This document shows positions 32,821 to 57,050 of a stretch of DNA of 64,000 bases, in pieces. The DNA comes from Undaria pinnatifida (lineage: Eukaryota; Sar; Phaeophyceae; Laminariales; Alariaceae). The translations under genes were made by a program, and so were the position numbers. The DNA lies in assembly GCA_012845835.1 (NCBI GenBank), contig JABAKD010000010.1, positions 13,697,401 to 13,761,400 on the forward strand, read 5' to 3'. Each line of letters opens with the position of its first letter. The stretch's first letter is position 1. The notes beneath the pieces are model-generated. The model ran no database searches. It saw only the letters and a program-made list of their open reading frames with translations, and had not been told where the DNA came from.

Positions 32821-32825
32821 AGCAC

Positions 32826-33019
32826 ATGCTGAATATCACCAGCATCACACCCATGGAACTTATCGGAAGGACGGTCATGTTCGGGTGCGCCCTGAGGACT
32901 GTTGGTGTCTACGCGATGGCGGCTGCGGGGACGAGGATGGGTGCTGTGGTGAAGACTTCCCTGCTGGGATCGCGGGTTGCCCTTGTTTCGAGCGCCTTTC
33001 CGCTGTTCATGTGCTGGAG
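32826..33019 (+). CDS. Exon 1 (or first visible exon) of the reelin-type gene
   Basis: The frame starting at ATG 32826 runs MLNITSITPMELIGRTVMFG and on to FPLFMCW, then splits a codon at the donor ag|gtacgt (phase 2). The frame is open back to about 32634 without another ATG, so either 32826 is the start or a further exon lies upstream. A competing frame (Lys/Arg-rich from an ATG at 32627, phase 0) also fits the next exon. I prefer this one because its third positions are much more GC-rich. Confidence 0.5.
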
Positions 33020-36000
33020 GTACGTAAGCTGGATCCTGTAACTAATGTAAATTCCGTTGGGCTTTTTCTACGGCGCATAAGCTGCTGTTCCTCTGGGAGA
33101 CTTTCTAGGTAGATGTATCCGACTTGATCATGAGGCACCCTTTCTAGCTCACTTATTTCGTCGTGAGAGTGTACGTGCGATCTTGGGAGAGTGCAGAACA
33201 AAGGGGGGGTGCGCACGATATGAGTTCATCCCCGCAGTTACTACGTCGTACAAGCTGTATTATCCAATGTCCGTTGGGCTTTTTTCTACGTAACGCACGT
33301 ATGTAGACTGTTCCGCTGTGGGGCTTGCCAGATACACGATCTGGTCATTGAGCACCCGTATGTAGATTTCCTATTCCACGCATGTACGCGCGGTTTGGAA
33401 ATTTTGGAAGTGGAGAACGGCTGATAATTCTCACCCCCCCCCCGGCACCCAGACATATAGACTATATACCGGCAACAAAACATTAATTCCTCGCAGCGAG
33501 TACGAGCACAAGCAGTACTGCGATAATAGCTCTTACGTAGCACCCTCGCGCGCACCATCCGCCAACACATCACACCCTCAAACGCAACCCTCAGAGTAAG
33601 CTTGAAGTGGATGCCTGCGGCGTGTGCCTGGAAGACGGTAAGCTCCGGAGCTGCTGCCACCGTCACTACTGCAAGCTGTGCTACGAGGGCACCGGCAACT
33701 GCCCCGGTTGCCACCTAATCACGGTCGGCGCCAACAAGGGCTTGCTAACACAAGAAAACCTTAACCCTGACGGCGCAGCAGATGGCGCGGGAAACGCGCC
33801 AGTCGTTCGAGAGGGAGAAGAATGTCGCTCTTGTCTCCGGCAAGGGTTCGCCCGCAAATGCTGCGGGGAATTCTACTGCAGCGACTGCTACTTCCGGAGT
33901 GGCCATTGCCCAAGCTGTCAGTTTCCTGCGGAGAAAAGGATCAAGTACCAGAGGCTCCCCCGAGACCCCGGGTTCGTGCCCGTTCTCATTGGGTATGCAG
34001 CAACCTTGCTTGTCTCTCTAGCTGTGCTGGCCTGCGTTTCAGTGGCTGTGGCCAACAACAACAGCGCCATTAAGACTGTTTTCGGCCAGACGTGTTACGG
34101 TTTTTTTCCGAGCTGCATTGCGGGTCCGAAGTGTGTTGAATTTGCGGGGGATACAGCGACTGGGCTGGCGCCGATCACGGAGTGGAGCTATTGCAATGAT
34201 GAAACTACCGTGGAGAAGGTCTACGGTGGCTACTGTATCTTCGACGAGGAGGTGAGAGCTATTTATTATAGTGTTTTTTGTTTTTTTTCTCGCTTTTTGG
34301 CACGCCAGCTTTCCACTCGGTTCTCACGATTGGTCTATAAGGCTTGGTATTGTTTAGTGCTATACAAAAGCTGTAGCGGAGCATAACAATAGCACATACC
34401 TTGGCAATGATATATGATGATGATATTAATACCACGTTATAGGACACTTACCTGGAACCTAGCCCGTGGTAAACAAAAATAGCCCATATCGGTGTCAAAC
34501 CACGTTGCAAACGGGCAACCAAACCAACAAACACACCGCACTTCCCACAGATTTAGATCTAGATCACCTAGATAATATGCCTTCGAAGTATATGTGGTTA
34601 CGATCTGTTGTACAGGGTCTGCGCAGTTGCAGATCCAACCAGAGAAACAATACTTTTTAGATAATGCAGACGACACGGCTGCACACCCGGCAGCATAGCC
34701 TAGACCATGCAGATCGCATAAAATAGCAAAATATCTGCCCTGGGCGACAGGTCGTGAACGGGGCGCTATCCTGTCCACTGCTGTGTGGAACAATCACACA
34801 CGCACAGGGGGTTGCTGACCTACCTGGCGCATTCTTGAAGAGGAAATGACGTGTAAAAACGCGCAGCTTCATCTTTCGGGTGATATATTGAGCCCCTTAT
34901 ATGTCAGGGAGCTCAGAAAATTCTTGTTGTTGTTTTTTTTTCTTCTTTTTTTTATCCTCCGGCGGATGGGGAAAAATAAAGATTTAGCTCACCACACTTC
35001 CACGTATTTTCATACGCGTCGTGTGTCGATTTAACTCAGTTGCTTTCTTAGAATCTGCTGCACCCCTATAGCGTGGGATGACTCTCACCCACAGTTAATC
35101 CTATAGCTGCCGTTGCGGAATTGTTGTGTAAGATTTGTATGTGCATGCGGAGTACAGATTCAACCCAGAGAAAACGAGTGCTAGATCACGAAGATCGTAC
35201 GGCTCCCACCAGACATGATGAGCTAGATCAGACAGATTTTCCCTGGAAGGTCTATATAATCAAGTGAGGATAGATCATCTGTCCGACGCCTGTGGAATTA
35301 TTACATGAAAAAAAAAACAGGTGTACATTTATTCGGGTGGAAAATGGGGGTTCGATTTCTGCGTCGAAGATTTTCTGTCCTCGTCAAGCGGAGTGTACGT
35401 GTTCGAAGACACCTTCGAGCTTTGGACCACCCAAAACACATCCGGCAACGCCATGGCGTCTGCGCGCTGGGATCACGCGATTAACGGGGAGTTGTCGAAG
35501 ATCTGCGGCGTGGGGGCCGGGTCGAAAACGATGGTGTTCTCCGGCGCAAACTACAGGGAGGTGGAGACGCTGGATTTAGAGATGAGGTGAACACAGCCAG
35601 CCGTGGCTGGTTATTATCATCATTGTTGCCCTGGCCGTTCAGACATAATAAATCGAACATCCTCCCGTAAAGCAGTGGTATCCAGGGCGGTATCTCTCCT
35701 ATGACTCTCTGCCAACCATTTTCCAATTTTCTTGCCCCACATGTTTGCACTGCACTCACCGGCATTTTATTATGTCCTGTTCCTCATCAACATTTCATGC
35801 CCAGGTCGTTGGACGCATTTCTCCGGCTCCTTCCTCCCTTCTCATCGCGACCTGGCGGTCCCTGAGGGCTAGCTTGTACCTGTGGACTTGATGTGTCTTG
35901 AATTAAACACGAAAAGAAAAAAAAATCACCACCTCCCCACCCATACTTCTTGCTGCCCTGACATGTCGGTTATGTAGCCCTACCCACTGAGCTACTCGGT

Positions 36001-39000
36001 AAGTTGATAGGCTCTCCGCTTCTGAGCGTGGTATTAGCGGATTCCCCCCCCGGGAGACACTTGTATTCAGAAACACTTGTATTCCGAAACACTTGTATTC
36101 CGAAACACTTGTATTCCGAAACACTTGTCACGTGGCGAGGGGAGAGCCCCGAAGATCCCTGTTACAAATTCGACGAGATTCAATCAACGAAACCCGAAAA
36201 TTTATAGTTTGTTGGTCATAGTCTGACCAGGTGTAGCACTATCCACTGAAGAGCTGCTCTCATTCTCGTGACCGAGCAGATCAGTAGGTAGTGCCATAGT
36301 GACTGAGTAACTCAATGGGTAGTGCTACATCACCAAAACACACATCATATCTGGAAACTAAGTAACTGTTCTACATGTCATAAATGACAACCTTTCTATA
36401 CTCAACTCTCGGCTCGCTCACATGTGGACATTAAAGTATTGATAGCCGTCTCGTCGTCTCCTATTTTGAGGCCAAAATAAAAAACATTCTGCAAGAAGCT
36501 CCAGAGAATTAATTGCCCTGCCCCGGAGATTTGCGTCCATGCATGCGGAGTTTCGAGATGGTGTAACTGACACGGAGCCTCTAAGGCCCATTGTTATATC
36601 GTTTTGCCCAGGCAATAAGTTAACCATCTGCCAGTGGTCAAACGCATTAATACCCCATAGGAAGTGGCGCCGACTAACTCCGTCTCTCAGGCTAACGTTT
36701 TTTCTAAAAACTTTTTGCTGATATATACCTGGTACGAAAAAATATTAACTTATAATCTCAAATTTGTCTTTTCATCCAAAGTGTGGGCGCAGTTAAAAAT
36801 CTATCATTAAGCAGAAGTGAGTTGCTGGTCGCAGTTGCTGAACTTTTTGGTAGCCCCTCTGTTGGTGAACTTTCAGGTAGCCTCTCCGTTGATAAAGTTT
36901 CTGGCGATATCTCTGCTGTTGTATGTGCCGCTAAAGGTATGGTAGATACCGTTTTGGACCATGTCAAAATCACGAATTAAATCGAGTTGTGTAATTTGAG
37001 AAAGAGTGCCCCAAAGCAGATTTTTTATTTGCTCATGCTGCTAGTTATAGGGTATGACCTCGTTTCGGGCCAAACCCAAAAATCACGCAATGCGTTTTTG
37101 GCCTAAGATTGGGAGCCTTAATAAGTAGAGCTTTTCTTGGGTTCGGACAGTGCCAGCTCCGAACGAAGCAACAGCGGAGTCTTGTCACACTCCCGTCTGC
37201 AATGGCATTGCACTCTCTACTCTCGTTAGAATTCGAAAAGGTGTGTCACCTACGCTTGTACCAGGTGTGCTTCCCAGCGAATGCAGAGAGAGGGAGGTGT
37301 GGCCCACGGTTCGCCCGTGCCGCCGGAAGCAAGGACCCTCAGCAATCTTCTAGGCAGTCATCAGGACCACGCTTATTTGGCCTTTCGCAAAATATTTCCA
37401 CTGGATGTTTAGATAGCACTATTGTGTGCCATACATACCTGCTTTCAGATGCAGTTTACGGGACGTGTCTACATAGAACACCGCCAACCAGTGCTTTCAG
37501 ATGCAGTTTACGGGACGTGTCTACATAGAACACCGCCAACCAGTCATTTAGGGTACAGGGCTTGGTGTGCAATTTTTTTTTCTCAAGTTATGGAGCCGGG
37601 TTCGATGATGAACGAAAGTTCTGCGACCCCCCCCTCCCCCCGGCCCATTTTCGCGACGTTTTGCCCCCCCCCCGCCCCCCCGCTCCCCCCGCCCATTACG
37701 GTAAAGAACCCGCTTCCGCGTTTGGTGGTGGCTGACAGGTCGACTGTCCGCTACAAACCCGCTTGTCGGGGGCAATATGTGCTTCAGATTTCAGAGCATG
37801 GCATGCAAGATAAATTGCTCATTTTTGGCGCCAAGCCCGATGGCGATTTAAAAAAAACATTGTGCCGCCCTCCCCCCGACCCATTTCGCGTCATTCTCCC
37901 CCCCCCCCCCTCCCCCCCGCCGGACTATCACGAATGTTACAATGATGGAATCCATCTCCAACTTTAAGAGTGGTAGACGCGTCGATTGTCCTCAGTAAGC
38001 CCGCTTACTTTGGGAACGTGTATTTCAGGTTCGAGGGCTTGGTGTGCAAGATAAATAGCTTGCTTTTGACATCCGATCCCGATTATGAATGGGTGGTGAA
38101 CGAAAGTTATGCCCTCCCTTCCCAATTACTTCGACACGACACCGAGCTGAATTTTGAACGAAAGTCCCCTCCCCTCCCCGCATTTCCTAGTGGCCACAGA
38201 CGGCCAAAGAGGAAGGAGATGGGATAAGGACTTTTCTTTATATGACACCTAGTGTATGGAAGAAGCGTACAGAGCGCCCAAATGTTGGAGGTGTCTCTAT
38301 TAGGAGTAGGAACGGTACTCCGCCTCGAAAGAGGCGCATGGTCAATGGTCAAACGACTAAGGCAAAGCCACAAAAGAGTACGCCCCACCCCCCCTCCCCC
38401 CCCCCGCTTTTTCACGACCCGACACCAACACGTTTTCGAATTAAAGCTCTGCCCCGCCCCCCGCCTCCATTAGCCGGTCGCCCCGATGGCATATCAGGTT
38501 ATCCTCGAGCCTGATATAGGCCAGTTTCGTGAGTTCGAGCCCCGCCGAGTGCATACTCGTATAAATTCGTTGGGACTTTTTCTTGATCACAAATTGACTT
38601 GCGGAAAGCGCGAGAGCGTGAGTTAGCAACACTCGATGAAAAATCGACGAGCAGTAGGATTGCTGAACCCTATGCGCGATAAAAATTGAAGACAAGAACC
38701 GAGGGGGAGAAGAGACGACACCTGTGACCACGGCTTGTACAGAAGCTGGAAAGTAAATGTGTGTGAAAAAACAAAAAAATCACGACACGACGCCGATCCG
38801 AAGTTTCTATTAACGCTGTGCGCCCTCCTCCCCCCCCCGCCATTATGGCGACATGCTGCCCCCCCCCCCATCCGATACCGCGGGATTCTACGCCCCCTTT
38901 TCCATTATGACGACATTGTACGCCCCCCCCCCGCATTATCGCGACATGTTACGCCTCCTCTCCCATCATCACAACATTATACGCCCCCCCCCCCATTATC

Positions 39001-42000
39001 GCGACATGTTACGCCTCCTCTGCCATTCTGACGACATTATACGCCCCCCCCCCCTCCCCATTATCGCGATATTTTTACGCCTCCTCTGCCATTATGACGA
39101 CATTATACGCCTCCCCGCACCCTCATTATCGCGACATTTTACGCCCCCTCTCCCATTATGACGACAGTATACACCCCCCCCCCCCATTATCCCCACGTTT
39201 GACGCCCCCCGTCCCATTATGACGACATTATACGCCCCCCCCTCATTATCGCGACATATGTTGCCCCCCCTCCCATTATGGCGACATTATACGCCCCCCC
39301 CCCACATTATCGCCTCATTTTACGCCCTTCTCCCGTTATGACGACATTGTACCCCCCCTCCATTTCCGCGACATTTTACGCCCCTCCCATCCGTAAGCAA
39401 GAAAGTAGGCACAAGATGCCGAAGTCCGTCTTACAAGCGGTTCTTGGAAGGATGCAGTTCACCCTTCATGCGACTCGCCGATCACCTCACGGCGCTTCGC
39501 ACTTGAAGCAAGCAATGTCTGCCTGGTTCGGTGAAAACCCGACGTGCTCCGTCCCGGCATAGCAGGAATGCGAGGGTCTATGGTCATACATCCATCATAA
39601 CATGCACAAACTGAGTACACCTCCCCCATTATCGCGACATTTTACGCCCCCCCTCCCCGATTTTTGCGATATTTTACGCTCCCTGTCTCATAATGACGGC
39701 ATTATACGCCCCCCCCCTCCCATTTTGACGACAGTTACGGTGGTAGGCTGGTGTTCCTCATCAAGATGGGTCCACCTGTGGCGGACGCGTCGACTGTTCT
39801 TTGCAAGCCCGCCTACGGTGGGAACGTGTACATTTACTATTCTCTTGACGGTGGAGACACGTGGGAAACGTTGACCATCCTCGAGACGTTCGCTTACCGC
39901 AAGGAAGACTTCACGGAGGTGACAATCGAACAAGATGCTTACTAACACCGCTGTTTCGTCCGCCTCGGAACGTGGAAATCAATGTGTTGTCTTAAATTAC
40001 TATTACGGAGATCCACTGATAGAAGCATCAATTATCAAACAACGAAAGAGGGGGCAAGAACAGCACCCGCCTTTGTTGAATAGCGCTTGGCGCAGGTAGG
40101 TTTTACTTTGTTGGCCGGTCTTACCAGGCATACAGACCCTCAATCGCACACAGTAGTCGTAGCGTAGGAGAGCTCGCCTGAAAGGCGGCGATGCTTCCCT
40201 TTTTTCGTGTGTGTTTTCATCCTGGCAACAGTGAATCCACTTGATAATAGTATGAATTCGTTCATTTAGCCACCCCCACGCTAATATATGTGTGTTTTCT
40301 TCCAATTAAACTGTTATTTCCACCCATTTGCACCCAGCACTAAACCGTGTCCGTACTGATGCTTCATAGAGAGACGAGCGCTCTCTGTGATCACAAACCA
40401 CGAGACAGAGATGTACGCAGTATAAGACGTAACACGCCGTCTCTCTCTGCCATGTCGTCATTTTCAACAGCGGAAAATTGAGGGATATCTTGAATTGGTA
40501 TAGATTCATTTCATTCGGGGGCGTTTTACGGTCGAGTCGTGAATTCGTCGATCGCGGGGGCGAGTGTTTGCACTGCTGTAGTACAACATTGATGCCGACG
40601 CCTAGTAATAAAACAAATAAGAACGAGATTTGCCTTTCGTCAGCACCAAAGATCAGAAGACACGCCCAAGCAAAACGAAGATTAAATTATTCCGCACTAG
40701 TTCAAGACATGTAAAAATTTCCGCCTTCGAAACAGACGATATATATCGTCTCCCTCTGCCATAAAAAATAGTTAATGCCTAAAAATAGTATGAATTAGTT
40801 GAATCCCCGCCCCCGGCCCCCAACACACATTGCGTGTGCTTTTGTTTTGCTCATTCCATCTATTACCTTCGCTCTTGTCTTTTCATTCTCGTTTCATAGA
40901 CGCACCTCAGACCCGGGTTCACCAAGCAGACTCTTTTCTTCCCCCTCCCCACTACGGTACGCGCCTTGAAAAATTTGTCGCGAGAAGAACTCAGCACGTT
41001 CTTCCCCTCGTCGTCTCGCGTCGAATTGTGTTTTCACCCACGCTACACAGCAGTACACAGACAGCGCTCTCGGCAGTTAGTTGGTGTCTCTTATATCAAA
41101 TAGGAGATAAAAGAAAAGTCTCCATACCGAGGTTCGGACCCCTGACCTGCACCTTAATTCTGCTCCTGATTAACCACTAAACCACAGGGGCTACCGGCTC
41201 ATTTCGCCTCTCGTTGTATACCCATTAATACGCCATCAAATAGTCCATTGGGTCAGACTGGCGTCTAAAGAGTTCCTTAGACGCACGCTACGATATATCT
41301 AGACCAGGCGTCTAAATAGCTCCTTAGACGCACGCTACGATGGAGGTATACTTTTTTTTGGCGAAAGCGTTTTCTGAATGACGGGGCTCCTGGACCCAAA
41401 TCATCGAAAACAAGGCAAACATATATTTTTTTTTGCGTGAAATTCTCGTTGTGCACCTGGGCCAAGAGGGAGGGATCTTTCATTCGGCAACAGTTTAATT
41501 TTCTTTCCCCCCTCCGAAAAAGAAGAAAAAAAAAAATGGGGGGGGGAGGTCTTAACCCTTTTAGAACCCCAAAACCCGTCCCTATACTAATTCCGAGTTA
41601 TTTTTTCCCAAAACGGGTTTCCCGTTGTGAAAGCGTTAAGCTCCTAGATTGACGAACTTCTGAAAAATAGAGGCGCGCCTCTATCGTAGTACGAGTCCTT
41701 AAAGGGGTACCCCTCCGATGAGGCAGTATACTGCAGTAGGCGAATATCGACGCATGCTGCGGGTGATAGAGAGAGAGAGGTGGCGTCGCCATTTGCCTTC
41801 TGAGGGCACCCCGTGGCTCGAGGAGCTTGTGATGAGTCGTGGTGCCGGGAAGGTGTGAGGGAAGGGACGCGGGCTATCTTAACCGCATCTATTGCCAGCT
41901 ATGCTGACGCTCTATTACATACCTCGCTCAACACAAAATTTGGAGAAACTTAAAAAGTGCGACGAGTCGTGGTGCCGGGTAGGTGTGAGGGAAGGGACGC

Positions 42001-45000: not shown

Positions 45001-48000
45001 AGACACCAGAACCCAAGAGGGGCACGCTTCCCAACACCGACCAACCACGCATCCCCCACTCGGAGTACTGCGACAATGGCCTTCTGCTGTAATGATTTTC
45101 CTTGAGGGTCCCGGAAGTATGATCTACAGAAGTTGAACACAGGTGTATCTACCGCTTTGACCACCACAGCAGTCAGATCGGTAAAACCCAGGTGGGCAGA
45201 ACCCTCTCTTTTTAGAGTGACTAGTCGTGCAAGGCTTCCTTGATTGCGCCAGGTTACAAGAGGAGTGACAAGCGGGGGGCGGGGGGGGGGAGCTGGGTCG
45301 TGGCCAATCTGCATGAACCGGCTCTCGTACTGGCAAGGATTCTGACGCATTGTACGAAACGTCATCGACTGTAAATCTCGCTGCGTCCCGTAGTAAGCTA
45401 CCCGCTACTGGAACACCCCGCCTTTGACGTAGCGCTTACTTGAAGTAGAGTACATACCAATGTCACACCACAGCCAATCACATAAAGTCCTATAGTACGT
45501 GGCTGAGAACGACAACATCCGCTATGCGCGCACGCCACTGGCAGTTAACAACGAATCGGATCAACCCGTGGCTTGAGCAATAGTGCCCCCATAGTTGTAT
45601 ACGTGCGTACACAGATGACGCGAATCAGAACAAATCCTTGGCTTGTCAAGGAATACCGTTGTGCTTGCACATCATAGCGCCACGTGCCGTCTTAATATTC
45701 ACTTCTTACTTCGAAGCAAGAGGATCTCCCTACTGGCGTGTGGTGCCCGGCTCCTGAGTTGTGTATGCTCCTGAGTTGTGTATGTACCGGTTCCGAATGA
45801 CACACATCAGATCCTACTAACTTTGCGGTCTGGATACATACGCGTCTACCCGGTAATTTAGACATATATTTAGATCCCAATAATAATGTACGGTTGGTCT
45901 ATTGCTCATACAGAAGAGCGCATACAAAAGAAACTCTATAACGCTACGGGCTGGTTCAAGTTAAACGACGGAATTGTATCCCCCGGCGGATGCCCACGCT
46001 GTTTTTTCGATACAGACCGTGAAACTTTGACCGCGCGTCTTCTATGTGCCGTTGCGAAGACCTCACCTGACGTTTGTTTGTTTTGTTTGACTGTTTTTTT
46101 TTCACCTGATTGTACGTCAGTGAAGATTTCTGGAATTGTTGGACCACCTTAGACCAAACATTTTCGACGAGAAGAACAAGAACAAAAAAGAACAGAGGTT
46201 AGAACTCGGAATGGGCATGTAGAACACATGTGCACAATTTCACGGTCAACCTCTCAGAAACGGCCTGGACATTTGAACCTTAGTGCGTAAAAATGAGTAA
46301 GACACCAGTACGTTAGTTATTTTTCGTGCAGGATCCAGTTTTTTGCTATGTTCTACTTGACACTGAACATACGCATGTCAGATTTTTGATTTTTTGCGCG
46401 AAAAAAAAAATCCATACAGACATGCCTTGGAGTACCTCCAACCGGGTCGTCCAAAATGCGGCGCAATCGTTTTTTTCGCCCCCGTTTGGAAAAAACCTGA
46501 ATATTATTTAGAAAAAAATGAAGGCCTACTATGTATTGCGAGTGGTTTTCGTGGGGGAGAGAATTTCCGACGTTTAACTTGAACCAGCTCGTCAGGTATA
46601 CCGAAAAAAAAACGTATTGCTCAACACAAGAATGGCATTCCCCGACGATTTTGGGTTAACGCCCCCACAACTGGAAACCCGTTTTACGGGGACTCATTTA
46701 CTTGGAAATAGTATAGGGAGTGGTTTTGGGGCTCTGAAGGGGGTTTATACGGGGGGCCCCGTCATTCAGAAAAAAAAAAAAGTGCTACCTTCGTCGCGGC
46801 ACGCGTCAAGGATAAAACCTGTGCTGGAGGAAACGGTAGTAAACGGTGCAACGCAGGTTACGCGCGTGCTACGCTAGAGTTATTAAGTGGTATACCGTTT
46901 TTTGGCTAAACAAATATTTTTGTGAATGTAGACCAAGGCTGCGGCAAGGGGGGTCACTGATGGCGCCTTTGTTTTTGCAGTGCCTCGGGGGTCACTCGCG
47001 CGAGTGCCCCCCCCCCCCCACCCTCCTGCCCCTGTTTGTTATTTGCGGTCTTAACGTCTTTACAACTAGAAATCAGTTTCTTTTTTTTACAATTTTACTT
47101 GAAGTTAGCATAGGGATGTTTTTTTCGGGGACTTTCAAAAGGAGTTTAAGAAGCTTCCGCGCCGTTTTGATTGTGCGATACGTCTCCGCAATGGAACTAT
47201 GGTCGTTTGCGCTTCGCCAAACTAATTACGTAAATAAAGTGTTTTTTCGTCAGTGAGGTGTGGAGTCACTTGTGCCAGCGGTTCAAACACGGTAGCGAAT
47301 AAACGGCTACCGCCCTACCATAGCCTTGATCCATATGGTCGGGTCGGGTCGGGTCGGGGGGGTACTCAAAATCCCACGGATCGGGTCGGGTCGGGTCGGG
47401 TCGGGTCGGGTCGGGACGGGGTCGGGTCGGGTCGGGTCGGGTCGGGTCGGGTCGGGTCGGGTCGGGTCGGGTCGGGTCGGGTCGGGTCGGGTCGGGTCGG
47501 GTCGGGTCGGGTCGGTCGGGTCGGGTCGGGTCGGGTCGGGTCGGGTCGGGTCGGGTCGGGTCGGGTCGGGTCGGGTCGGGTCGGGTCGGGCGGGTCGGGT
47601 CATGTTGGATCAGGAGTTTAACAGATATCACGGTTCGGGTCGGGCCGGGTCACCCTGACACGATCCGACCCGCGAACAGCCCTGAATATTTGTAACTGTC
47701 GACAACTGTATGCGTTGGTGTGAGTTTGTGAATCAGGCAGCAAGTCGTGAAAAAAATAACGAGAAAGTTCCTCGGTTTGTTCCTTTTGGAAGATTCCGGT
47801 CGTCGGACGAGACACGGGGGAAATTCAGGCACGCGAGGCTGAAAACGAGCCCTCTCTTCGTAGCTTGAAAACTCGCGAAAATAAGCGCGAGTTTTTATAG
47901 ACGGAAAGATACCTGTGACCACAGCTTGTCCAGAAGGTTGCTGAAGGGTAAAAAAAAGTATTTTCGAGTTAAGCTGATGAGCAAAAAGCGATTATCAACA

Positions 48001-51000
48001 AAAAGAAAAGAAATAAAACATTTGGCCGCTTCTTGTCACAACTTGAAACCGTTTTTGACCTATAAAAAACTGCTCCACTCCACTTCCAAGTTGTAACACC
48101 CGCTACGACAGGCGGGCAGCACTTTTTTGAGCTACAAAAAAATGTCCTGCATGGTGGTGCTCCTTAGCCCCAAATCATCGGATTTTTCGTTCTTGTATTC
48201 CAATGTATGACACGTGCCAAGATAGAGGTTCACCACTTTTTTTTTTTTTGAGGTTCCTCACTGTAAGAGCTTGAAGAAACAAGAAAAAAGAAATATTTTT
48301 TTGGAGAAAAATAAAACTGCTACGAAGTATGTACCGGATTAAAAATCCCATGGCCCAGAGGTGTATACCAACGAGAATCACGCCAAAATTAAGGGGGCGT
48401 ATTTTCCAACGATTTTGGGTTCAGGAGCCCCGTCATTCAGAAAATGTTTCAGACGAAAAGCGCTACTTCTATCGTATCACGCGTATAGTAGTAGTTGTAT
48501 GCCTAGGCCATGCGATTGCTCCTCGGGTTGGGCGTTTTCGTTTTTTGTTTTTGTCATAAGTCAAGTTTTGGAGTGAGGTATAGAGCGGCTTAAGTGAGGG
48601 TTTTCAGAAACGAAAGGGTGTGCACGCACACCTCTACCGTAGCCTGTGTCTCAGTCTGTAGGTAGGTGGCTTCAGAAAAGCGGCTTCAGAAAAATGGCTT
48701 CAGAAAAGCGGCTCCAGAAACGTGTGGCTTCGGCTCCGAAAAAATATCTACCGAAACAACTGCTGTAAAGACTGTGTGAGCTTCTCAGAGGACTCAGGCG
48801 GCGTGTCTAAAACCTTGGAGATGAATTCCAGCATGATCATCATGGACAGAATGCAAGTATTAGTAAGACGCATCCATCCGCCTCTCGATCCGACGATGTT
48901 CTCCAAGGGCGTCCATTCTTTAACTTTCGGTTGTTTCGGCACCGACCGTTGATCTGGCGAGACGAAAGTTGTTCCAGCCCTGAGATGTGTCTAGCTACGC
49001 GCACTTCAGAAATCATAACGATGTTAAGAAAAAAAGAATGTAAAGGACTTCTTCAATTCGAATTTGATTTTACTAAGAGTTTTCAGAGGCGTGTAGCTCA
49101 GTCGGTCGGAGTCTAGTGAAATGTCAAACCGAGGGTCTTGGGGTTCTTTTACCAACATGCCGACATGCGTTTGGTTCATTCTCTCAAAACCGAGGGTCTT
49201 GGGGTTCTTTTACCAACATGCCGACATGCGTTTGGTTCATACATGCCGACATGCGTTTGGTTCATTCTCTCTCAAGTATTAACTTTTTGGGGTACATCCC
49301 CGGCAGGAAAAGAAAACGTGCCTACACACACAAAAAAAATCGCGCGAGACACTCATATCGTACCCCATCCCGCCCCCCCGCCCCACCGGCTTGTTTGTGG
49401 CGATTCTTCGTTCTCGGCATGGGACAGGTGCTCAGCTACTTCTCCCCGGGTTGGCACGATGCCGCCGCTTTCGAAACGACTACAGATGACGAAACTGAGA
49501 CGCTGCGGGAGATTCGTTGCTGCTTCAATAGCGAGCAGTGCGACTTGAGCAAACGGCAGCAAGAGGCTGTGGACTGCTCTCAGTACATCTCGGAAACGTC
49601 TGACGAGCGGGCGCTGTTAGGTGCAGAGCTGTTTGTGGTGAGAAGCCAGGGGCAAGACAATTTCCAACAGCCGGGGGGGACGGGGGTGGAGGGGGTAGAT
49701 GGGGGTGCAAAGCATGCTGCTTGTTACATCTCTGGTATTGCGCTGCGTGATGTCGACCGAATGCCTCCTGGTAAGAAGGGAGCGGGTCGGGCTCATCTCA
49801 TCCAGGCAGGCGACAACGCCTGCCTGTCAAGAAATGAGGGGAAGCTTGCTATATATCATAACGCCGCCGGGGGGAAGGGGATACCATAACTTCACGCAGT
49901 TGGCGCCGCCGATATTTTTTCGTGAATACCGGACGGAAAGACGCCGGTGTCTGTAGCGATAAGGCTTCGCACTAGGTCTGATGTATTCACGGTCGTCGCT
50001 GCGTTTCCCTGTTGTGCGCAATGCCATCAGGGGCATCATCTCCCCGGCAAAAAAATACAGACGTTGTGTGAAAAAAGAAGTGGACAGGTGCGCTGAGGGA
50101 CCGTAAAACCTGCCCATGGCGTAGTGCCGACGCTTCGAACATGTTGCCTGTTCTACCACTAGAACAAAGAAAGCTCTGCGCCAATCTTGCGCGCAATCTG
50201 CGCCGCCGCCAGTATGAATAGCATTAGTAATTAATGTGGTCACGCTGCCTGACCTTTAAACAGAAAGGCACACAATATCAGACACAAGATAAAATGGCCA
50301 TTCCCACCTGCCACGACCCGCATAAACGAAGAAAAAGTCCTTACCTCCCCCCCCCCCCCCCCGTTCCTACCGCCCGCGACCGCCGCAGCTGTTGGCAGCA
50401 TTGGTGTCCCTAGCGAGATCTCTCTACAGTACGGGCCAGGGGATGGTCATTGAGGGGTGGGAGTACATCGTCCCCATTTCTTTGCGAAAGAGACGACCCA
50501 AGATTTTTATGGCTGATGATCCCACACCGGGTGCGATGAACAAGCTGTTCACCCTGGACTGTGACCTCAGGCGAGAACCCAGCGTTTTTTTTGTTATGTG
50601 CGGGGGGGCGCAAGGGGGGGGTGGGGGTACCTACTCGCTTGTTCCTTGCCTTAGTCGTTTCACCGTTGATCACATATCCCTCTCGGGACATGGAGCGGGG
50701 TAGGAGTCAATCTCGTCGAGGTAGCGGAATGACGATTTGGCGTTGTGATAAAGGCAACGTGTCGATTCGGCTTGTGTGGCTGGACTGTACCTGTTCGCAG
50801 GGCACAATCGATCGAGATAAACAAAATGTGGTTGGCCAGACTAATTTTATCTCGATCGACCACCTCACTGCCCTGCCACAACTAAATTCGATCGACCATC
50901 ACCAGGTGGCGGTTTCGTTTCCTGGCGCTCGTCAGCGTGCCGCTGTTGGTGTGCTGGCTGTACTGCGCCGCCCTCTTGCGGAATTTCTACCTGGTGGAGG

Positions 51001-54000
51001 AACTGACGCTACTCCCGGACATTGCTCCTACAAACGTCAAACTTAAGGTGTTTTTTTTCGTTTCCGATAGAGGTATTACTAGGATTTTGTTTTTACCAAA
51101 ACACTTTTGAATGACGAGGCTCTTTAACCCCTTTAGAGCCCCCCAACATTCTTCCCTATACTAAATTCAAGTAATTTTGGTCCCCAAAAAGGGGTTCCAA
51201 CATTGAAGGCGTTAACCCCAAAATCGTCGGGATGTCATTCTTGCTTGGCAAATATGAACATTTTTTTGTGTTTTTGGGTGAGGTGTATAGAGCTCCACAC
51301 GCAAGGGGTCTCAGAAAAAACAATGGTGAACCGTTGCCCTAGCATGTGTCCATCATCCATACCACAGTTCCTGGTTTGTCTGGGAGGTGTTCGACGTTAC
51401 ACACAAGCGACTGATTCTACGATAGCCCCCCCCCCCCCCCCCCCCCCCCAAACCAGCAATTTTCTTGAACAAGAACGTTTCATCATCATGGTTGCTCGAC
51501 ACGAGGAAGGATGCTATGAAAAAAATGTATCGTTACATACTTTCTTGTTTACAGCAAAGCTCTATCGAACGATGGCGTCGGGGTGGCAAGGGGCACAGTA
51601 TTTAAAGGAGATATCGCCGGGAGCTGGTTTTAAAACCGGCAATTTCGTTAAATGAAAGTTGGAGGGGATAACGTAGAACGACTCAAGTTCAGATCCGTAG
51701 GGTTGGCTTAGGCGTACACGCGGTGTGAGGTCTCACACGACGAGGTTAAGTGGGCGTTACCTGCGCTCACAAAACTTGGTAGATCACGGACGATCGGAAA
51801 TAGTTCTAATTCGGACGTGACCACGTTGTTTTCTTTCTTTCCTTCTTCGCGTGTTGTATTTCTCCTGTGAGCAAGTTAGACGCCACGGTCGTATCTCGGC
51901 GCGTTATATCTTGGTCGCAAACGCACATGCCAACCGGCCACTCCACGGTTCATGCGGTTACATCGACGAAAACGCGTTGGCAGTGCCGCCTGTCAGCTCG
52001 ATTGAAAAAAACATTTACCAATTCGTTGAAAACAGATCACTAAATACCTATTTCTAACATGCCCCCTCGATGGGGGCAGTGTGCAAGCAGTTTTTCCTGT
52101 CGGTTGCCCTGCTGAATAGGCTGTCTTGACATAGATTACTGCTCCGGCTCTTGCGATGTCGACCACAATTAAATGCGAGAGCTTTAACAGAATGTTTGCC
52201 AATTTGTTGAAAACACATAACTAAATACCTATTTCTAACACGCCCTCTCGATGGAGGCAGTGTGGCAAGCAACTTTTTATGTCGGTTGCCTTGCTGAATA
52301 GGATGCCTGGAAACAGGGTACCGCTCCGTCTCTTGCGATGTTGACCACAATTACACGTGAGAGCAATAGCAGGCTGTGCACCGTCACCGCCAACCAACAC
52401 ATACGACTACATACCGGTGCCACACCAAACACACTAGGTGCACATTTCGGGCCTCTTTCTTCTGGCCACGTTCATCGACGTCTACTCCGCGTTTCTCTTG
52501 GCAAGGGACGTTGTCTGCGTGCTCCCCATCTGGGTGCCGAAGGTGGACGTCGACCTTCGCCCCTCCGCCGGCTGGCTGCGAATCGGATCGCGCCAGATCC
52601 CTCTTAAAGACATCAAGGTGGGGGTATACAACACGTGATGCCGCACAATCCAACCGTAACGTTTGAGGGTTTCAGATTGAGTGTTTTCGAACCCGACAAC
52701 TCTACCGTAACGTTTGAGAGTTTTCGGGCGGGGACAAGGAGGGTTGTTGGGGTCTTTGGTCACGAACCTTTTTGGGATCCATGTACAGCGGCTCAAAATC
52801 TGACGATCGCGTAGACGATTATCGGTACAGCGTTCAGCAGCGGCAGAAGCGTCAAAATGCTGCACGCAGGCCGTACAGCTTTGCACGCTGCAGTTCAAGC
52901 ATATCCCCCGCTCCAGCAACTTGGGCTGCATCGTTGGACCAATGCCGCAAGGGTCCTTATTTTCGGCATCCGACGTCCCCAATAGATTTTAGCCCCCAGG
53001 GAGATGGGCAATGTGTTACCACCACTGGCATAGCTGTACACTTATAATATTGAGCAGTTCAGGCCTAGCATCGTCTTGAAATCAGGGATAATACAAGCTC
53101 GAATTATTTGTTAGTATTCGTAGTATGCAGGCCATCCGAAAAATGCGCTTCCATGAGCTTCAGCATCGATCACACACAAACGTGTTCAGAGAAAAGAGCA
53201 TAACCAAGGGGAAACAAAAATAAAAGGAAAGCCATCCTACACGAAGTCAAACTCCCTTCTGTACCTACTTCCGGCTTAGTGTATTATGCCCCGCCCGCCG
53301 GCCCGCCCGCTCCTATGTTCGTTTTACTTATTCAGGACACTGAAATGGTTAGCACACGCTTCTGCCTGTGGCTTGCCGCCGGGTACGTCACCGGCGTGCT
53401 GCCGTGGTCCCTGATCGCCCTCATCATCAAGTACAGCTACATCCCCTACGCCGTGGCTCGATACGTTACCGTCTCAATGGGCTCCGTGCTGCTGACACGA
53501 GCGTGGCTAGGGCCAGAGTGGGTGATCAAGTTGGCCTACTCGATAAGGTGGTTGCTGACCGTGAATATCTACAGGCGGGACGACATCGGGAACGCGTTTG
53601 CCGCAGGTAGGTTTCAATTTTAATATTGCTTTCCGCAACCGCAAACCAAGTGGCCGTTTCACCCCCCGCGCTGACTAAAGGGATTGCAACCTTTGGGTAC
53701 ACCCAAGGTCCAGGCTTAGCCGCCAGACGAACCCTGGATTGTGCAATCGGTTCCAAATACACGGTAACCACTGAGTTAGCAGCCAGCGCTGGCTACTAGC
53801 CTGCCCTGTGCCCCACGGACTTGATTGTGCGAGATAACGTGAGAACAGCTACAGTAGCTCAGTGGTTGTGATGTATATCTCTGGCAGGTCAATTCTAATA
53901 ATTGCCGAGCTCAAGCGACTGCACGGTGGCCGGCCACGCAATTTTGGTGACGGGGGAGAGGTTAAACTTGCCGTAGAAAATCGGGTGCCGCAGCGATACA

Positions 54001-57000
54001 GGTAAAAAAACACCGGATATGTGTTGGTATCCTTCTTCTACGCAGCATATCAGCGAACGGGGCCCTCTTCACATTGGGCAACCTAGGCGTTTGTTCGTTG
54101 CAAAACCTTTTATTCAACCTTTCCTGTGTGCTTTTCAATTCAGCCCGGTACGAAGTACTGAACAATTCCTAAGGCGAACAACTGCGACCAAGATCGCCAC
54201 ACAAACGAGAACCCTCCCTTTCTCCGCAGTCAGGTGCCTCCAGCGAACCGCATGCAATAGATTTAATAATTACCGCGCTTCGCTCTTGATGCACGCGATG
54301 TCTGCCTGGTCGGTGAAAACCCGACATGCTCCTTCCCGGCATTGTAGGGAGGCGAGGGTCTATGGTCATACGACCATGGCTATGCATTGTTAAGGTATTT
54401 AGAGGGTATTAGTCCGTTTGACCACTTGCAAAAGGTTAACCAATAGCTTACCCAAACTAAGCCTTATAACACTCTCCCCCCCTGAAACGGCGGGATAGCA
54501 GGTCGGCCGGATATACGGGCGGACCTGTCAATATATCCAAGCCGTTTCATCTCCTGGGTATACCGGGGAGAGTATTTTTCAAGTTCGCCATGGGAAAATC
54601 TGAAAAAGTTTATTATGGTGGATGTGGGGATCGAACCCACGACCCAAAAACCCATGGTCTGTCGACGACGCCATTTGTTAAAGGACTTTAGTGGGGTATT
54701 AGTCCGTTTGACCACTTGCAACTAGTTAACCGATAGCTTACCCAAACTAATCCTTATAACACTCTCCCCCCCTGAAACGGCGGGATAGCAGGTCGGCCGG
54801 ATATACGGCGGACCTGTCATTTATCCAAGCCGTTTCATCTCCTGGGTATACCGGGGAGAGTATTTTTCAAGTTCGCCATGGGAAAATCTGAAAAAGTTTA
54901 TTATGGTGGATGTGGGGATCGAACCCACGACCCAAAAACCCATGGTCCTGCCGACGACGCCATTTGTTAAGGTATTTAGAGGGTATTAGTCCGTTTGACC
55001 ACTTGCAAAAGGTTAACCAATAGCTTACCCAAACTAAGCCTTATAACAGCATGCAATGAGTACACCCCCCCCCCCTCCCCCGTAGCCAAGGGCCTCCAGC
55101 CTGCACTACATCTCTCCCCAATGCCATTGGTGCACTTGATACCCCCTTTGAGCCCAATGCCGTCTTTAGTATGTTCATAGGGTTTGCTAGTATGGTGTTT
55201 TTTTCGCTTTCCTTTCCCTGATTCCTCTTCTTGTTTATTTTCTCTTTTCTTTTCTTTTCCTTTCCTTTCCTTTTTCACTTTCTTTTATTTTCCCTTCTTT
55301 TGTGTCTTTTCGTTTCTTTTCTTTTTTTCCAATTGACTTGAGCCTGGCGTGCGTATGCGTAGTGATAGGTACCACGTGTAACATGTACGTGGTAGTCTTT
55401 TCTGGGTGGCAAGCGGTGTAGTCGTTTTTTTCAGGCGCGAGTAGTGCGACGTATGTACCAGTATGGGCCTGGCACATCGTAGGCCAACTCCCGATGTCAC
55501 TTTTTATATTTTTCTGGCGGAGGCATGAATTGCGTCAGCTATGATATATGCGTGTACCATTTTTTTTTTTTTTTTTTCTGGGGTATTCCTCCACTCCAGA
55601 GTGACTGGAACCTGTCCTATGACCACGGACTTGATTATGCGAGTTAACGTGAGAACAACAACACAACCACAACAATATCTGCTCCCACCCCCCCCTCTCC
55701 ACCGCAAACCTCGGTTCTCCGCGCTTTAAAAACAGAAAAGACAAAGTCGCTTGTGATATACAGCGCGATATTTGGCACGCTCTTGACCATGGGGGTCATG
55801 CAGCTGTTCAATACTCGATCCTTCGCCCTCGTTGCGGGGGTGGCGGCAGGCGCGTTTGCTTTTTACGGACTGGGCCTATCCGTAGTGCAGGGGTTACCCC
55901 TAACGCCGCTGTTCTGGCTCACGACCATCAGCAGGTGCGAGGGGAAAAAAAAGCGCGAGGGGGTGGTGGGGAGTGTAATCCTTGTCATGCATGACCGCAG
56001 TCGTTAGGACCATAGACCCTCGCATCCCTACAATGCGGGGATGGAGCACGTCGGGTTGTCACCGACTAGACAGGGGGGAGGGGGGCTGTGCTCACTTGTT
56101 GCTTGCCTTAGTCGTTTGGCCATTGACCACGCATCCCTTTCGAGACGGAGCACCGTTTCTACTTCTATCAGAGAGGCCTCCAACATTTGGATGCTCAGTA
56201 GGTGTTTTCCGGGGGGGAGGGGAGGGGGGGGGGGGGGGTGTCTCAGCACTCTCGTCGTTTCCCCGTTGTGTTGTAGATCGTGCGTTTCCTAAGGGAGGAT
56301 GCGCATTCACCGTTACGTGAAGAAAATTGCGACATGTTAGAGGCGAGCGACAGAGTATGAGCGTATACCGGTTCAGTGGTCCCTACCTCTATAGTGCCGG
56401 TTGCCCGCTATAGCGCTTGTGAAATCGATTGGCACTGATGGGAACAACCAGTAGTGGCGTTACACGGAGTAGTGCCGGTTTCCGCTATAGTGCTTTGTGT
56501 TTCCGACTGGCACACACCGGCACTACAGAGGGAGCACTACTGCTGTAGTCCCTTTCTCTCTGCCTAGGCAGGAAACTCCAGACACGGAGTAGTGCCGGTT
56601 TCCGCTATAGTGCTTTGTGTTTCCGACTGGCACACACCGGCACTACAGAGGGAGCACTACTGCTGTAGTCCCTTTCTCTCTGCCTAGGCAGGAAACTCCA
56701 GACAATTTCCCTGAAAGTTTAGGCTTGAGGGACGTCAGACAACAGCCACCCGATGTTTTCCGACCAATGAAATACTTCCTCCACAAAACGTTTTTTATCG
56801 ACCAATGAAATGCGTCCTGCATGAAACGGCTGACCAATGGGAACACTGCTGGTACCGTTACGCTTGTTCTCCCTCTTGTGTGGGAGGCAGGGGTCTGTTG
56901 ATTCGGGTGCACCACCAAGTTTTCTGCCCGTGCGAGCGCCACTTGGATCACTGCGGAAGCATGCACAGTCGGGACGAGCTCATTTGCGTGTTCGTGCGGG

Positions 57001-57050
57001 ACACGCTGACCTTCTCCGAGATGCTGAGGGGGGACGATACCATCGAGTAG
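32826..57050 (+). CDS. Cys-rich / reelin-type jelly-roll / polytopic membrane protein (12-exon gene)
   Basis: Twelve exons join with agreeing phases: 32826-33019, 33597-34251, 35321-35586, 39735-39918, 43374-43481, 49428-49637, 50389-50570, 50906-51047, 52438-52617, 53336-53606, 55736-55934 and 56891-57050. They give about 916 residues. Order: hydrophobic N-terminal part; two Cys-rich modules (about 72-103 and 141-172) of the form CxxC..CC..YCxxCY..CPxC, resembling zinc-binding B-box or RING-like folds; a membrane segment (192-217); a Cys-containing linker; a reelin-type region (about 300-490) with GELSKICGV, NVYIYYSLDGGDTW and ENALEYWALDDVQ; a Cys-containing stretch (490-540); then several membrane helices in exons 8-11 and a Cys/His-rich tail. 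Reelin repeats are extracellular ligand-binding jelly rolls. This protein is probably a surface receptor-like membrane protein with the Cys-rich part inside (inference). The true start may lie upstream. Confidence 0.82.
33597..34251 (+). CDS. Exon 2: two Cys-rich modules and membrane segment
   Basis: 655 nt, beginning with one base that completes the split codon (Ser) and ending in phase 0 at gaggag|gtgaga. It encodes CGVCLEDGKLRSCCHRHYC, then KLC..CPGC, a second module (CRSCLRQGFARKCCGEFYC, then CPSC) and the helix VLIGYAATLLVSLAVLACVS. The two modules share spacing and look like a duplication. Confidence 0.9.
34252..35320 (+). other. Intron 2 (1.1 kb)
   Basis: It has a copy of the gatggggaaaaataaa/ctcaccacactt repeat (about 34965-35045) also seen at 27555-27625. 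The acceptor lacks a pyrimidine tract. No exon was seen. Confidence 0.55.
35321..35586 (+). CDS. Exon 3: start of reelin-type region
   Basis: 266 nt, from phase 0 after an acceptor (aaaacag|gtg) to phase 2 at gatgag|gtgaac. It carries FEDTFELWTTQN, NGELSKICGVGAGSKTMVF and REVETLDLEM. These match the first strands of reelin subrepeats, which have a W, then a GG.i...CG..g.al.F pattern and a TLDL-like strand. Confidence 0.88.
36055..36125. repeat. 18-bp tandem repeat, about four units
   Basis: The unit acacttgtattccgaaac recurs in tandem. Confidence 0.9.
36220..36340. repeat. Palindrome with tRNA-like D-arm sequence
   Basis: ggtgtagcactatccactga on the left pairs with tcaatgggtagtgctacatc on the right. 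The minus strand of the left arm resembles a tRNA A box. Confidence 0.55.
37540..38190 (+). pseudogene. Decayed tandem copies of exon 4 in intron 3
   Basis: Segments at about 37720-37800 (VVADRSTVRYKPA) and 37970-38040 (VVDASIVLSKPAYFGNVYF) resemble exon 4 (VADASTVLCKPAYGGNVYI) in DNA and protein. Each is followed by the same spacer (ggcttggtgtgcaagataaa) and by a C-rich run. A third spacer without exon sequence lies at about 37555-37720. Neither copy has an intact downstream half. Confidence 0.75.
38230..38390 (-). repeat. Poly-C-tailed repeat, family P, subfamily A
   Basis: On the minus strand it reads ttgcct-tagtcgtttgacca, then ttgaccatgcgcctctttcg. On + it ends in gagtacgcccc followed by a long C run. 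The same layout recurs at 44170-44460, 50620-50720, 56090-56200, 63040-63160 and 63690-63830. Confidence 0.65.
38475..38750 (+). repeat. tRNA-derived SINE-like repeat, type 2
   Basis: The head gccggtcgccccgatggc matches the head of the copy at 1245. B-box-like gagttcgagccc lies at about 38530. The body end acacctgtgaccacggcttg is shared with 42970-42990 and 47910-47930. Confidence 0.65.
38800..39735 (+). repeat. C-rich minisatellite ending at the exon 4 splice acceptor
   Basis: Units of about 28-30 bp, often alternating as 58-bp pairs: cattatgacgacattatacg followed by 7-13 C, and cattatcgcgacatgttacg, then cctcctctcc. About 20 units lie at 38830-39400 and a further four at 39625-39735, split by a family P repeat. 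The last unit reads cattttgacgacag and supplies the acceptor of exon 4. Confidence 0.9.
39395..39615 (-). repeat. Poly-C-tailed repeat, family P, subfamily B
   Basis: Compare its reverse complement with 43640-43850: both hold catggcc-tagtc, accctcgcatcc, gagcacgtcggg, aagcgccgtgaggtg and catgaagggtg. It sits inside the C-rich minisatellite and ends gagtacacctcccccatt. Confidence 0.7.
39735..39918 (+). CDS. Exon 4: reelin-type strand exon
   Basis: 184 nt, with one base completing the split codon (Ser) and phase 0 at acggag|gtgaca. It encodes YGGRLVFLIKMGPP, then NVYIYYSLDGGDTWETL, the most diagnostic reelin motif (v.YSvdGG..W..l). The codon split fits exon 3 exactly. Confidence 0.92.
40835..41205 (-). 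repeat. tRNA-derived SINE-like repeat, type 1
   Basis: On the minus strand it begins ggtagcccctgtggtttagtg (A-box-like), followed by B-box-like ggggtccgaacctc, then a body matching 1330-1595, and ends near gatggaatgagcaaaacaaa. Confidence 0.72.
41325..41700 (+). mobile_element. MITE-like family M copy
   Basis: It starts cgctacgatggaggtatac, has the core ttctgaatgacggggctcct and acccaaatcatcg, and ends gcctctatcgtagtacg. Confidence 0.6.
42560..42990 (+). repeat. Partial family M copy followed by SINE type 2
   Basis: 42560-42640 carries the reverse family M core (ggctaaggagtcccccgtca, then acctctatcgt). From about 42625 a SINE head with gtgggttcgagtctcaccga leads into a body ending acctgtgaccacggctcgtc. 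Confidence 0.6.
43374..43481 (+). CDS. Exon 5: end of reelin-type region
   Basis: 108 nt, 36 codons, phase 0 at both ends (taag|gtg, cag|gtaagg). It encodes VEIEVPSSLVSSAVRFKW, then ENALEYWALDDVQ. In reelin repeats an a.RF.w strand is followed by W.iDDv. The fit with exon 4 (phase 0) is exact. Confidence 0.92.
43640..43850 (+). repeat. Poly-C-tailed repeat, family P, subfamily B
   Basis: It follows gggggcggggggg and reads catggccgtagtcctatgac, cctcgcatccctactatgcc, and on to catgaagggtgcgctgcatc. It matches the reverse complement of 39395-39615. Confidence 0.7.
44170..44570. repeat. Family P subfamily A copy (minus) with expanded tail array
   Basis: The copy ends in aacaaatgagtacgcccccc and runs into about eight units of taacatgcccccc. 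This suggests tail growth by slippage. Confidence 0.65.
46580..46810 (-). mobile_element. MITE-like family M copy
   Basis: Reverse core ccccgacgattttgggttaa, then gccccgtcattcag, ending at gctaccttcgtcgcggcacg. Confidence 0.5.
47337..47690. mobile_element. GGGTC pentamer array with one TIR-like end
   Basis: A nearly pure (tcggg)n array of about 265 bp (47337-47605) is followed by a segment ending gacccgcgaacagccctg. That end resembles the right ends of the elements at 61.4-61.8 kb and 62.1-62.7 kb. No left end was seen. Confidence 0.7.
48120..48670. mobile_element. Two family M copies in opposite orientation
   Basis: 48120-48210 has gctccttagccccaaatcatcg (+). 48390-48480 has ccaacgattttgggttcagg and gccccgtcattcagaaaatg (-). 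A closing cacacctctaccgtagcctg lies at about 48625-48645. Confidence 0.5.
49120..49265. repeat. 62-bp direct repeat
   Basis: The segment gagggtcttggggttctttt, accaacatgccgacatgcgt, ttggttcattctctc occurs twice in tandem, with a third partial copy. Confidence 0.85.
49428..49637 (+). CDS. Exon 6: Cys-containing segment after the reelin-type region
   Basis: 210 nt, 70 codons, phase 0 at both ends (gggacag|gtg, tttgtg|gtgaga). It encodes VLSYFSPGWHDAAAFETTTD, then EIRCCFNSEQCD and AVDCSQYISETSDE. It follows exon 5 as the next strand and linker would. The C-terminal half looks like an extracellular Cys-stabilised loop. Confidence 0.85.
50389..50570 (+). CDS. Exon 7, ending at a GC donor
   Basis: 182 nt, phase 0 start after a strong C-rich tract (polyC 50347-50362, then cgccgcag), phase 2 end. 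It encodes LLAALVSLARSLYSTGQGMV, WEYIVPISLRKRRP and NKLFTLDCDL. The only donor that fits exon 8 is ctcag|gcgaga, a GC-AG intron. Confidence 0.78.
50906..51047 (+). CDS. Exon 8: membrane helix
   Basis: 142 nt, with one base completing an Arg codon and phase 0 at cttaag|gtgttt. It encodes WRFRFLALVSVPLLVCWLY, then CAALLRNFYLVEEL, one clear membrane helix. The acceptor is accag|g. Confidence 0.82.
51048..52437 (+). other. Intron 8 (1.4 kb)
   Basis: It has a family M copy (about 51055-51345), a 24-nt poly-C run (51426-51449) and a direct duplication of about 170 bp (52010-52175 and 52195-52345, with gaaaacagatcactaaatac/gaaaacacataactaaatac and gatgtcgaccacaatta/gatgttgaccacaatta). Confidence 0.65.
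52438..52617 (+). CDS. Exon 9: membrane helices
   Basis: 180 nt, 60 codons, phase 0 at both ends (cactag|gtg, atcaag|gtgggg). It encodes VHISGLFLLATFIDVYSAFL, then DVVCVLPIWV, with a short polar loop (RPSAGWLRIGSRQIPLKD). Confidence 0.85.
53336..53606 (+). CDS. Exon 10: membrane helices
   Basis: 271 nt, from phase 0 after tttacttattcag to phase 1 at gccgcag|gtaggt. It encodes two or three helices (FCLWLAAGYVTGVLPWSLIA, ALIIKYSYIPYAV, VTVSMGSVLL) and ends NIYRRDDIGNAFAA. Confidence 0.88.
54270..55075 (-). repeat. Two tandem tRNA-headed repeat units plus partial third
   Basis: Units at about 54411-54663 and 54668-54955 are nearly identical. On the minus strand each has a T arm GTGGGTTCGATCCCCAC followed by ATCCACC. 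The D-arm side does not complete an acceptor stem. Each unit also holds an internal inverted pair (ctgaaacgg and ccgtttca). A third partial unit runs to about 55047 and ends in a gagtacacccccc tail of family P. A family P subfamily B copy (minus) precedes at 54270-54390. Confidence 0.7.
55736..55934 (+). CDS. Exon 11: membrane helices
   Basis: 199 nt, entered with two bases (Glu codon completed) after a pyrimidine-rich tract ending aaaacag, and left in phase 2 at agcag|gtgcga. It encodes LVIYSAIFGTLLTMGVMQLF, FALVAGVAAGAFAFYGLGL and LTPLFWLTTIS. Confidence 0.86.
55985..56235 (+). repeat. Family P subfamily B and A copies side by side
   Basis: 55985-56070 reads accatagaccctcgcatccc, then gagcacgtcggg (B). 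After a G run, 56090-56200 reads tgcttgccttagtcgtttgg and accacgcatccctttcga (A). Confidence 0.65.
56462..56701. repeat. Perfect tandem duplication of a 120-bp unit
   Basis: The segments 56462-56581 and 56582-56701 look identical. Each contains an inverted pair tagtgccgg and ccggcacta. A diverged partial unit lies just upstream (about 56390-56445). It lies in the last intron, 190 bp before exon 12. Confidence 0.9.
56891..57050 (+). CDS. Exon 12: Cys/His-rich C-terminal exon
   Basis: 160 nt including TAG (57048-57050). One base completes Arg, then GLLIRVHHQVFCPCERHLD, HCGSMHSRDELICVFVRDTL and a DDTIE end. The acceptor gtgggaggcag|g fits exon 11. The last codons and the stop are the first unit of a minisatellite. 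Confidence 0.82.

Follow-up and report, generated by a model that had tools for sequence, protein, structure and literature searches.

The 64,000-nucleotide stretch of DNA analyzed here (the window; contig JABAKD010000010.1) carries on its plus strand, at positions 32826 to 57050, a split gene of 24 kb that would encode a membrane protein combining twin Cys modules, one reelin-type domain, and a multihelix C terminus. Its 12 phase-compatible exons, all on the plus strand, join into a single frame of 918 codons followed by a TAG stop, with no internal stops. A preliminary description of this DNA had counted 12 compatible exons and about 916 codons; rebuilding the gene from its splice sites and frame gives 918 codons plus the stop and confirms, on sequence grounds, one open 12-exon gene. 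Ten of the 11 introns are of the GT-AG type, while intron 7 is GC-AG, and their lengths range from 335 to 5946 bases, with intron 5 spanning 5.9 kb.

Exon 1 (32826-33023, residues 1 to 66) encodes a weakly hydrophobic N terminus, and its start codon is uncertain. No ATG precedes that at 32826 in its open frame, and the part of this frame lying upstream scores -0.19 per codon in the codon-usage analysis. A second frame over exon 1 (32627-33019), rich in KR and Ser, also joins exon 2 in phase and could represent an alternative reading. Its codon score disfavors it: the average per codon is -0.01 across the shared interval and -0.15 across the full frame, versus +0.24 for the chosen frame, a value that none of the 250 intron controls reached.

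The codon-usage evidence comes from a leave-one-out test, with open AG..GT segments taken from the introns and minus-strand segments as controls; the introns also served as the background model, which somewhat favors the exons. In the chosen frame, the codon scores are positive in all 12 exons, and the other two frames are zero or negative (-0.00 and -0.23 in exon 12). No intron controls were available for exon 2 (n = 0); 10 of the 11 exons having them score above every control, including exon 6, with a score of +0.23 (0/217 intron controls as high). Exon 7 scores only +0.05, which was reached by 5/308 intron and 13/446 minus-strand segments, and minus-strand controls also reach the scores of exon 5 (1/992) and exon 11 (1/361). 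A codon-model scan of the whole window, trained on these same exons and therefore not independent of them, places 11 of the 12 exons among the 45 best segments, exon 7 being absent. Between 32.8 and 57.1 kb, the only other plus-strand segment among these 45 is a minisatellite (47377-47616), so that no further exon is evident; one minus-strand segment among them lies opposite exon 2. Codon usage supports 11 of the 12 exons, exon 7 being weak.

The Pfam search that had been proposed in the preliminary description yielded, for the spliced protein, a match to Reelin_subrepeat-B (PF21471) with an E value of 2.7e-18 and a score of 66.4 bits (cut-off, 27), covering model positions 2 to 126 of 127. 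The unspliced open reading frames (ORFs) holding exons 3 and 4 match the same family weakly (0.021 and 4e-4, respectively). The domain lies at residues about 328 to 472 and is distributed over four exons. Exon 3 (35321-35586, residues 286 to 374) encodes the opening part of the jelly roll (ICGVGAGSKTMVFSG); exon 4 (39735-39918, residues 374 to 435) encodes its middle, with the Asp-box SLDGGDTW and a weak Pfam BNR/Asp-box match; and exon 5 (43374-43481, residues 436 to 471) encodes its end (RFKWKQ...YWALDDV). Exon 6 (49428-49637, residues 472 to 541) supplies residue 472, at which the Pfam and profile matches both stop, and continues with an acidic linker bearing four Cys residues and the beginning of helix 2. 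The three motifs quoted earlier as reelin-type are indeed encoded by exons 3, 4, and 5.

A test profile built from 20 animal and bacterial domains, with the window sequence excluded, gave a concordant picture. The matches of exons 3, 4, and 5 fall at profile positions 12 to 57, 61 to 112, and 117 to 153, following one another without overlapping, and the score of the spliced protein is 84 bits; with an E-value limit of 100, the same profile listed neither any of 200 shuffles nor any of the remaining nine exons. As successive exons (3, 4, and 5) match successive segments of the domain, introns 3 and 4 are supported by homology. Among PDB sequences, 13 were listed at E values up to 10: five distinct reelin sequences at the top (6e-20 to 4e-13) and eight others with E values of 0.29 or more. 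Moreover, 17 columns are invariant across the window domain and five animal subrepeats, and the Asp-box in exon 4 fits the pattern x-x-S/T-x-D/N-x-G-x-x-W given in PMC4882317; that paper and PMC2716378 describe the Asp-box for reelin subrepeats. These matches show the identity of the domain, and the gene model is shown at the level of sequence.

According to PMC4882317, a reelin subrepeat is an 11-strand jelly roll with bound calcium, and a reelin repeat consists of two subrepeats split by an EGF module. Scanning the complete protein against Pfam (E values up to 5), we found no second subrepeat, no subrepeat A, no EGF, and no Reeler domain. The reelin-type repeat announced in the preliminary description is thus retained as a reelin-type domain, but it is one B subrepeat and not an A-EGF-B repeat. 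Nor is the protein a reelin, which is secreted and has a Reeler domain and eight repeats; the window protein has one subrepeat and seven hydrophobic helices.

Within intron 3, a segment of 53 bp (37970-38022) is a degenerate copy of exon 4 (81%) that encodes VVDASIVLSKPAYFGNVYF, and a still weaker copy is visible by eye near 37730-37790; both look like remnants of exon duplication. The same intron carries a minisatellite (38840-39384 and 39620-39734) whose units look like the exon 4 acceptor region (CCCTCCCATTxTGACGACA), and the 3′ splice site of this exon seems to lie within the last degenerate unit of the array. Such a degenerate exon copy and intron minisatellites indicate a disturbed locus, as would suit a decayed gene or an artifact of splicing by eye. 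However, all 12 exons are open, the codon bias is intact in 11 of them, and homology is continuous across three exons, and we regard this explanation as highly improbable.

That reelin-type domains are essentially animal is not supported by our survey of prokaryotes. A degenerate motif based on the domain returned 23 stretches from a prokaryote genome collection. At 15 of these loci (L005-L007, L009-L012, L017-L019, L022-L025, and L027), the surrounding ORF, 302 to 2666 residues long, contains a reelin-B domain (worst E value, 1.1e-22, with a profile that included the window sequence), and the other eight gave no domain match. Eight of the 15 domains were submitted to Pfam, and all eight scored above the cut-off. 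The 15 loci are assigned to Bacteroidota (six), Verrucomicrobiota (six), Lentisphaerota (one), Rhodospirillales (one), and an unplaced bacterium. By BLASTP against the window domain, 8 of the 15 bacterial copies outscore the best of five animal subrepeats and 7 do not (best bacterial match, 35% and 5e-21; best animal match, 27% and 2e-13); the bacterial copies had been selected with a single motif and the animal ones through the PDB, so that neither set is a fair sample. In a tree of 21 rows, the window domain sits on a very long branch (3.59) without a supported place. Because the tree placement is unsupported and the BLASTP comparison is split 8 versus 7, a bacterial transfer of the domain is not shown; the building block of animal reelin may be old or may have arisen in bacteria.

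Weak matches to the domain were also found in 20 phage records (best E value, 2e-3), 18 of which are Synechococcus phages or cyanophages, and plasmids gave no match at E values up to 0.1. In Synechococcus phage KU594605, the match lies at 69132-69467 (tblastn, 2e-3, 30%), and the matched cyanophage proteins are annotated as baseplate wedge initiator, gp7, or virion structural protein.

The fold was approached through one of the bacterial domains, modeled with AlphaFold2 from 14 of the 15 sequences (L018, of whose domain only a piece had been extracted, was omitted). The model has a predicted local distance difference test score (pLDDT) of 87, contains 11 strands, and matches the third repeat of reelin (PDB ID 2ddu) with a template modeling (TM) score of 0.88. 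Through this homologue, the window domain is predicted to adopt a jelly-roll fold. Among the best 50 of 1697 structure matches, eight reelin chains are followed, at TM scores of about 0.5, by carbohydrate-binding modules (CBMs) and Eph ligand-binding domains, with a few others mixed in; the first two non-reelin matches are CBMs, one of them porphyran binding.

Exon 2 (33595-34251, residues 67 to 285) encodes the twin Cys modules, the hydrophobic helix 201-219, and the beginning of an acidic Cys-rich stretch. The modules are two copies of CxxC-x8-CC-x4-CxxC-x6-CPxC, 37% identical over 41 columns, and a DNA pattern made from their core has two matches in the window, against none across 100 shuffles. 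Scans of viral contigs yielded no relatives; the four matches of the module pattern there are all low-complexity Cys runs or stop interrupted. A single-sequence AlphaFold2 model of exon 2 has a mean pLDDT of 43, with values of about 70 to 74 only at the helix.

The eight-Cys order and the CPxC ending of these modules are RING-like. RING proteins make up eight of the nine PDB sequences listed for the two modules (BIRC7 at 0.055 and others at 0.1 to 1.3) and eight of the 10 listed with a two-module profile (2.1 to 4.9). These observations would suit the best rival explanation, a transmembrane ubiquitin ligase with the modules as true RING-type domains. Its reelin-type ectodomain would select or sense a ligand, and ligand binding would control the ubiquitination of a surface partner; RNF43/ZNRF3 and the PA-TM-RING proteins are transmembrane ligase families for comparison. 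However, no RING match is significant, cathepsin F appears among the matches for the modules (0.44), and the best match of the two-module profile (1.1) is not a RING protein. In addition, no Pfam RING model was matched at E values up to 5, and by reading, the C3HC4 ligand set is incomplete, module 2 having a CC pair instead of the conserved His. We consider a ligase unlikely. The twin modules weakly resemble RING fingers and are probably zinc binding.

Hydropathy analysis (mean of at least 1.6) predicts seven membrane helices. The first (201-219) has a mean hydropathy of 2.48, and exon 1 has two weaker hydrophobic stretches (17-35 and 45-63) and the jelly roll a third (379-397), with means of 1.41 to 1.45. 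The second helix (533-551) is completed by exon 7 (50389-50570, residues 542 to 602), which also encodes a basic loop and ends at the GC donor; by reading, a GT donor after 50597 offers this weakest exon an alternative, phase-compatible 3′ end that would add nine residues. Exon 8 (50906-51047, residues 602 to 649) encodes helix 608-626, and exon 9 (52438-52617, residues 650 to 709) encodes helix 652-670. Exon 10 (53336-53606, residues 710 to 800) contributes helix 722-740 and, by eye, a possible extra helix near 779-797. The last two helices (805-823 and 829-847) are encoded by exon 11 (55736-55934, residues 800 to 866), and exon 12 (56891-57050, residues 866 to 918 plus the TAG) adds a C-terminal tail with CPC...C...C. 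The Cys modules lie N-terminal to helix 1 and the jelly roll lies C-terminal to it, with one strong helix before the domain and six after, in keeping with the layout proposed earlier (Cys modules and one helix, jelly roll, and six or more C-terminal helices).

This arrangement could also arise if two adjacent genes had been joined in error, exons 1 to 6 encoding a single-pass reelin-type protein and exons 7 to 12 a separate polytopic one. The 5.9-kb intron 5 and the succession of a weak exon 7 and an unusual GC donor would be compatible with such a boundary, but exon 6 continues the frame of exon 5 and contributes one residue, the final one, to the domain match, helix 2 spans exons 6 and 7, and the plus-strand segments between exons 6 and 12 among the 45 best are all exons of the model. 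We therefore retain a single gene and hold the fusion of two to be quite improbable.

The six hydrophobic helices that follow the jelly roll might alternatively belong to a channel or transporter, conducting or transporting with the jelly roll as an accessory ectodomain. However, this multihelix part has no match beyond noise in Pfam (E values up to 5), NCBIfam (E values up to 1), or the PDB sequences (0.68 or more), and it resembles no channel or transporter in any of the three. The preliminary label "channel-like" finds no pore or transport homology there, and we judge this function improbable.

The loop between helices 1 and 2 is 313 residues long and contains 50 D+E versus 21 K+R and 12 Cys residues, while the following loop has 9 K+R versus 6 D+E. 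Three NxS/T sequons are present in the protein, two in the jelly-roll loop (221 and 324) and the third at residue 3. The topology that we infer from charge and hydropathy would place this acidic, Cys- and sequon-bearing loop outside or in the lumen, as expected.

To account for these features, we propose that the single gene encodes a multipass membrane protein acting as an adhesion or wall-sensing receptor with a ligand-binding jelly roll, a reading to which we give about an even chance. One nuclear gene would produce a 918-residue protein, the N terminus of which, with its two RING-like modules, would stand on the cytosolic side. Helix 1 would lead into a 313-residue acidic ectodomain, in which a Cys-rich stretch is followed by one reelin subrepeat-B jelly roll and then by a short linker bearing Cys residues, and about six further helices would anchor the C terminus. 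Most likely, the ligand of the jelly roll would be a surface protein or a glycan of the wall or matrix, and the zinc modules would bind intracellular partners. A glycan ligand is plausible because the fold is CBM-like. We infer zinc binding, the ligand class, and the signaling role.

Several observations weigh against this proposal. Eph protein-binding domains resemble the bacterial model to much the same degree as the carbohydrate modules do, and no ligand residues are readable in the window domain. Pfam returned no match for the exon 2 ORF (E values up to 1) or for the Cys modules of the whole protein (E values up to 5). A crude, position-blind insertion scale is favorable for only two of the seven helices (201-219 and 608-626), so that the helix number is an estimate, and the loop at 741-804 is basic (9 versus 4), a poor fit to an outside position unless another helix lies within it. 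The protein may reside at the surface or in the endomembranes; we assume the plasma membrane, with the endoplasmic reticulum or Golgi apparatus equally open. Furthermore, a search for the complete architecture, covering viral contigs only, returned no homologue.

A bolder, doubtful extension of the receptor proposal would see here a receptor family of a nonanimal eukaryote, perhaps a brown alga as its retroelement would suggest, in which a bacterial-like reelin-type jelly roll that binds a glycan or protein, set in a polytopic protein, controls cytosolic twin RING-like modules, making it a wall-sensing transmembrane ligase that arose independently of animal reelin signaling.

Elsewhere in the window, CGGGT/GACCC pentamer arrays occur with a related 75-bp unit at 47377-47601, 61477-61720, and 62113-62643. 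On the minus strand, a 349-residue open frame (15525-16574) has a high codon score and contains the nine-residue repeat LPTSALPEG, which derives from a 27-bp tandem array; it has no Pfam match. Retroelement remains lie on the plus strand at 19684-21307, with a zinc-knuckle Gag-like ORF (0.0084) and a chromodomain-like ORF (0.055), both below the Pfam cut-offs; the former (19684-20331) is, we presume, reminiscent of brown-algal retroelements. The codon scan also marked two coding-like segments, one at 779-958 on the plus strand, which resembles the C-terminal part of an SCO1/SenC copper chaperone, and one at 63351-63482 on the minus strand, which resembles the end of a kinesin motor domain.

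To our knowledge, this combination of modules is unusual; the parts are each of known kind or unknown. It is quite possible that the gene represents an uncharacterized but widespread family. Among the open-licence papers listed, titles and abstract beginnings told of no reelin-type domains in algae or other protists; a Saccharina paper that mentions F-spondin (PMC11333212) is off-topic for this domain. Brown algae possess integrin-like proteins and leucine-rich repeat receptor kinases, and whether these interact with wall components is not known, according to a review (PMC8307928). Wall sensing in seaweeds and related algae is largely open. If the DNA comes from such an organism, a polytopic protein carrying a jelly roll on the outside and zinc-type modules on the inside would offer a concrete candidate for this role. 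The occurrence of the same domain in several bacterial phyla suggests that this unit may predate its animal namesake protein or be more mobile.

Compared with known systems, the Cys modules share with the RING fingers of BIRC7, XIAP, and others the order CxxC...C....CxxC...CPxC, a weak similarity; unlike these, module 2 lacks the His ligand and has a CC pair, and a Pfam RING match is absent. For the bacterial homologue, the jelly roll predicted by the model is similar to CBMs (CBM16 and a porphyran-binding CBM) at a TM score of about 0.5 only, and no binding-site residues were identified in the window protein. With reelin subrepeat B (PF21471; PDB IDs 2ddu, 2e26, 7lyu, and 6a48), the window protein shares the same domain by sequence, with the Asp-box, a common core, and the W-A-L-D-D end. 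It differs from reelin in having a single B subrepeat, with no A subrepeat, EGF, or Reeler found, and in placing the domain between predicted membrane helices, whereas those of reelin lie in a secreted chain. The bacterial reelin-B ORFs contain the nearest sequences by BLASTP, with up to 35% identity, and one of them has a reelin-like predicted fold.

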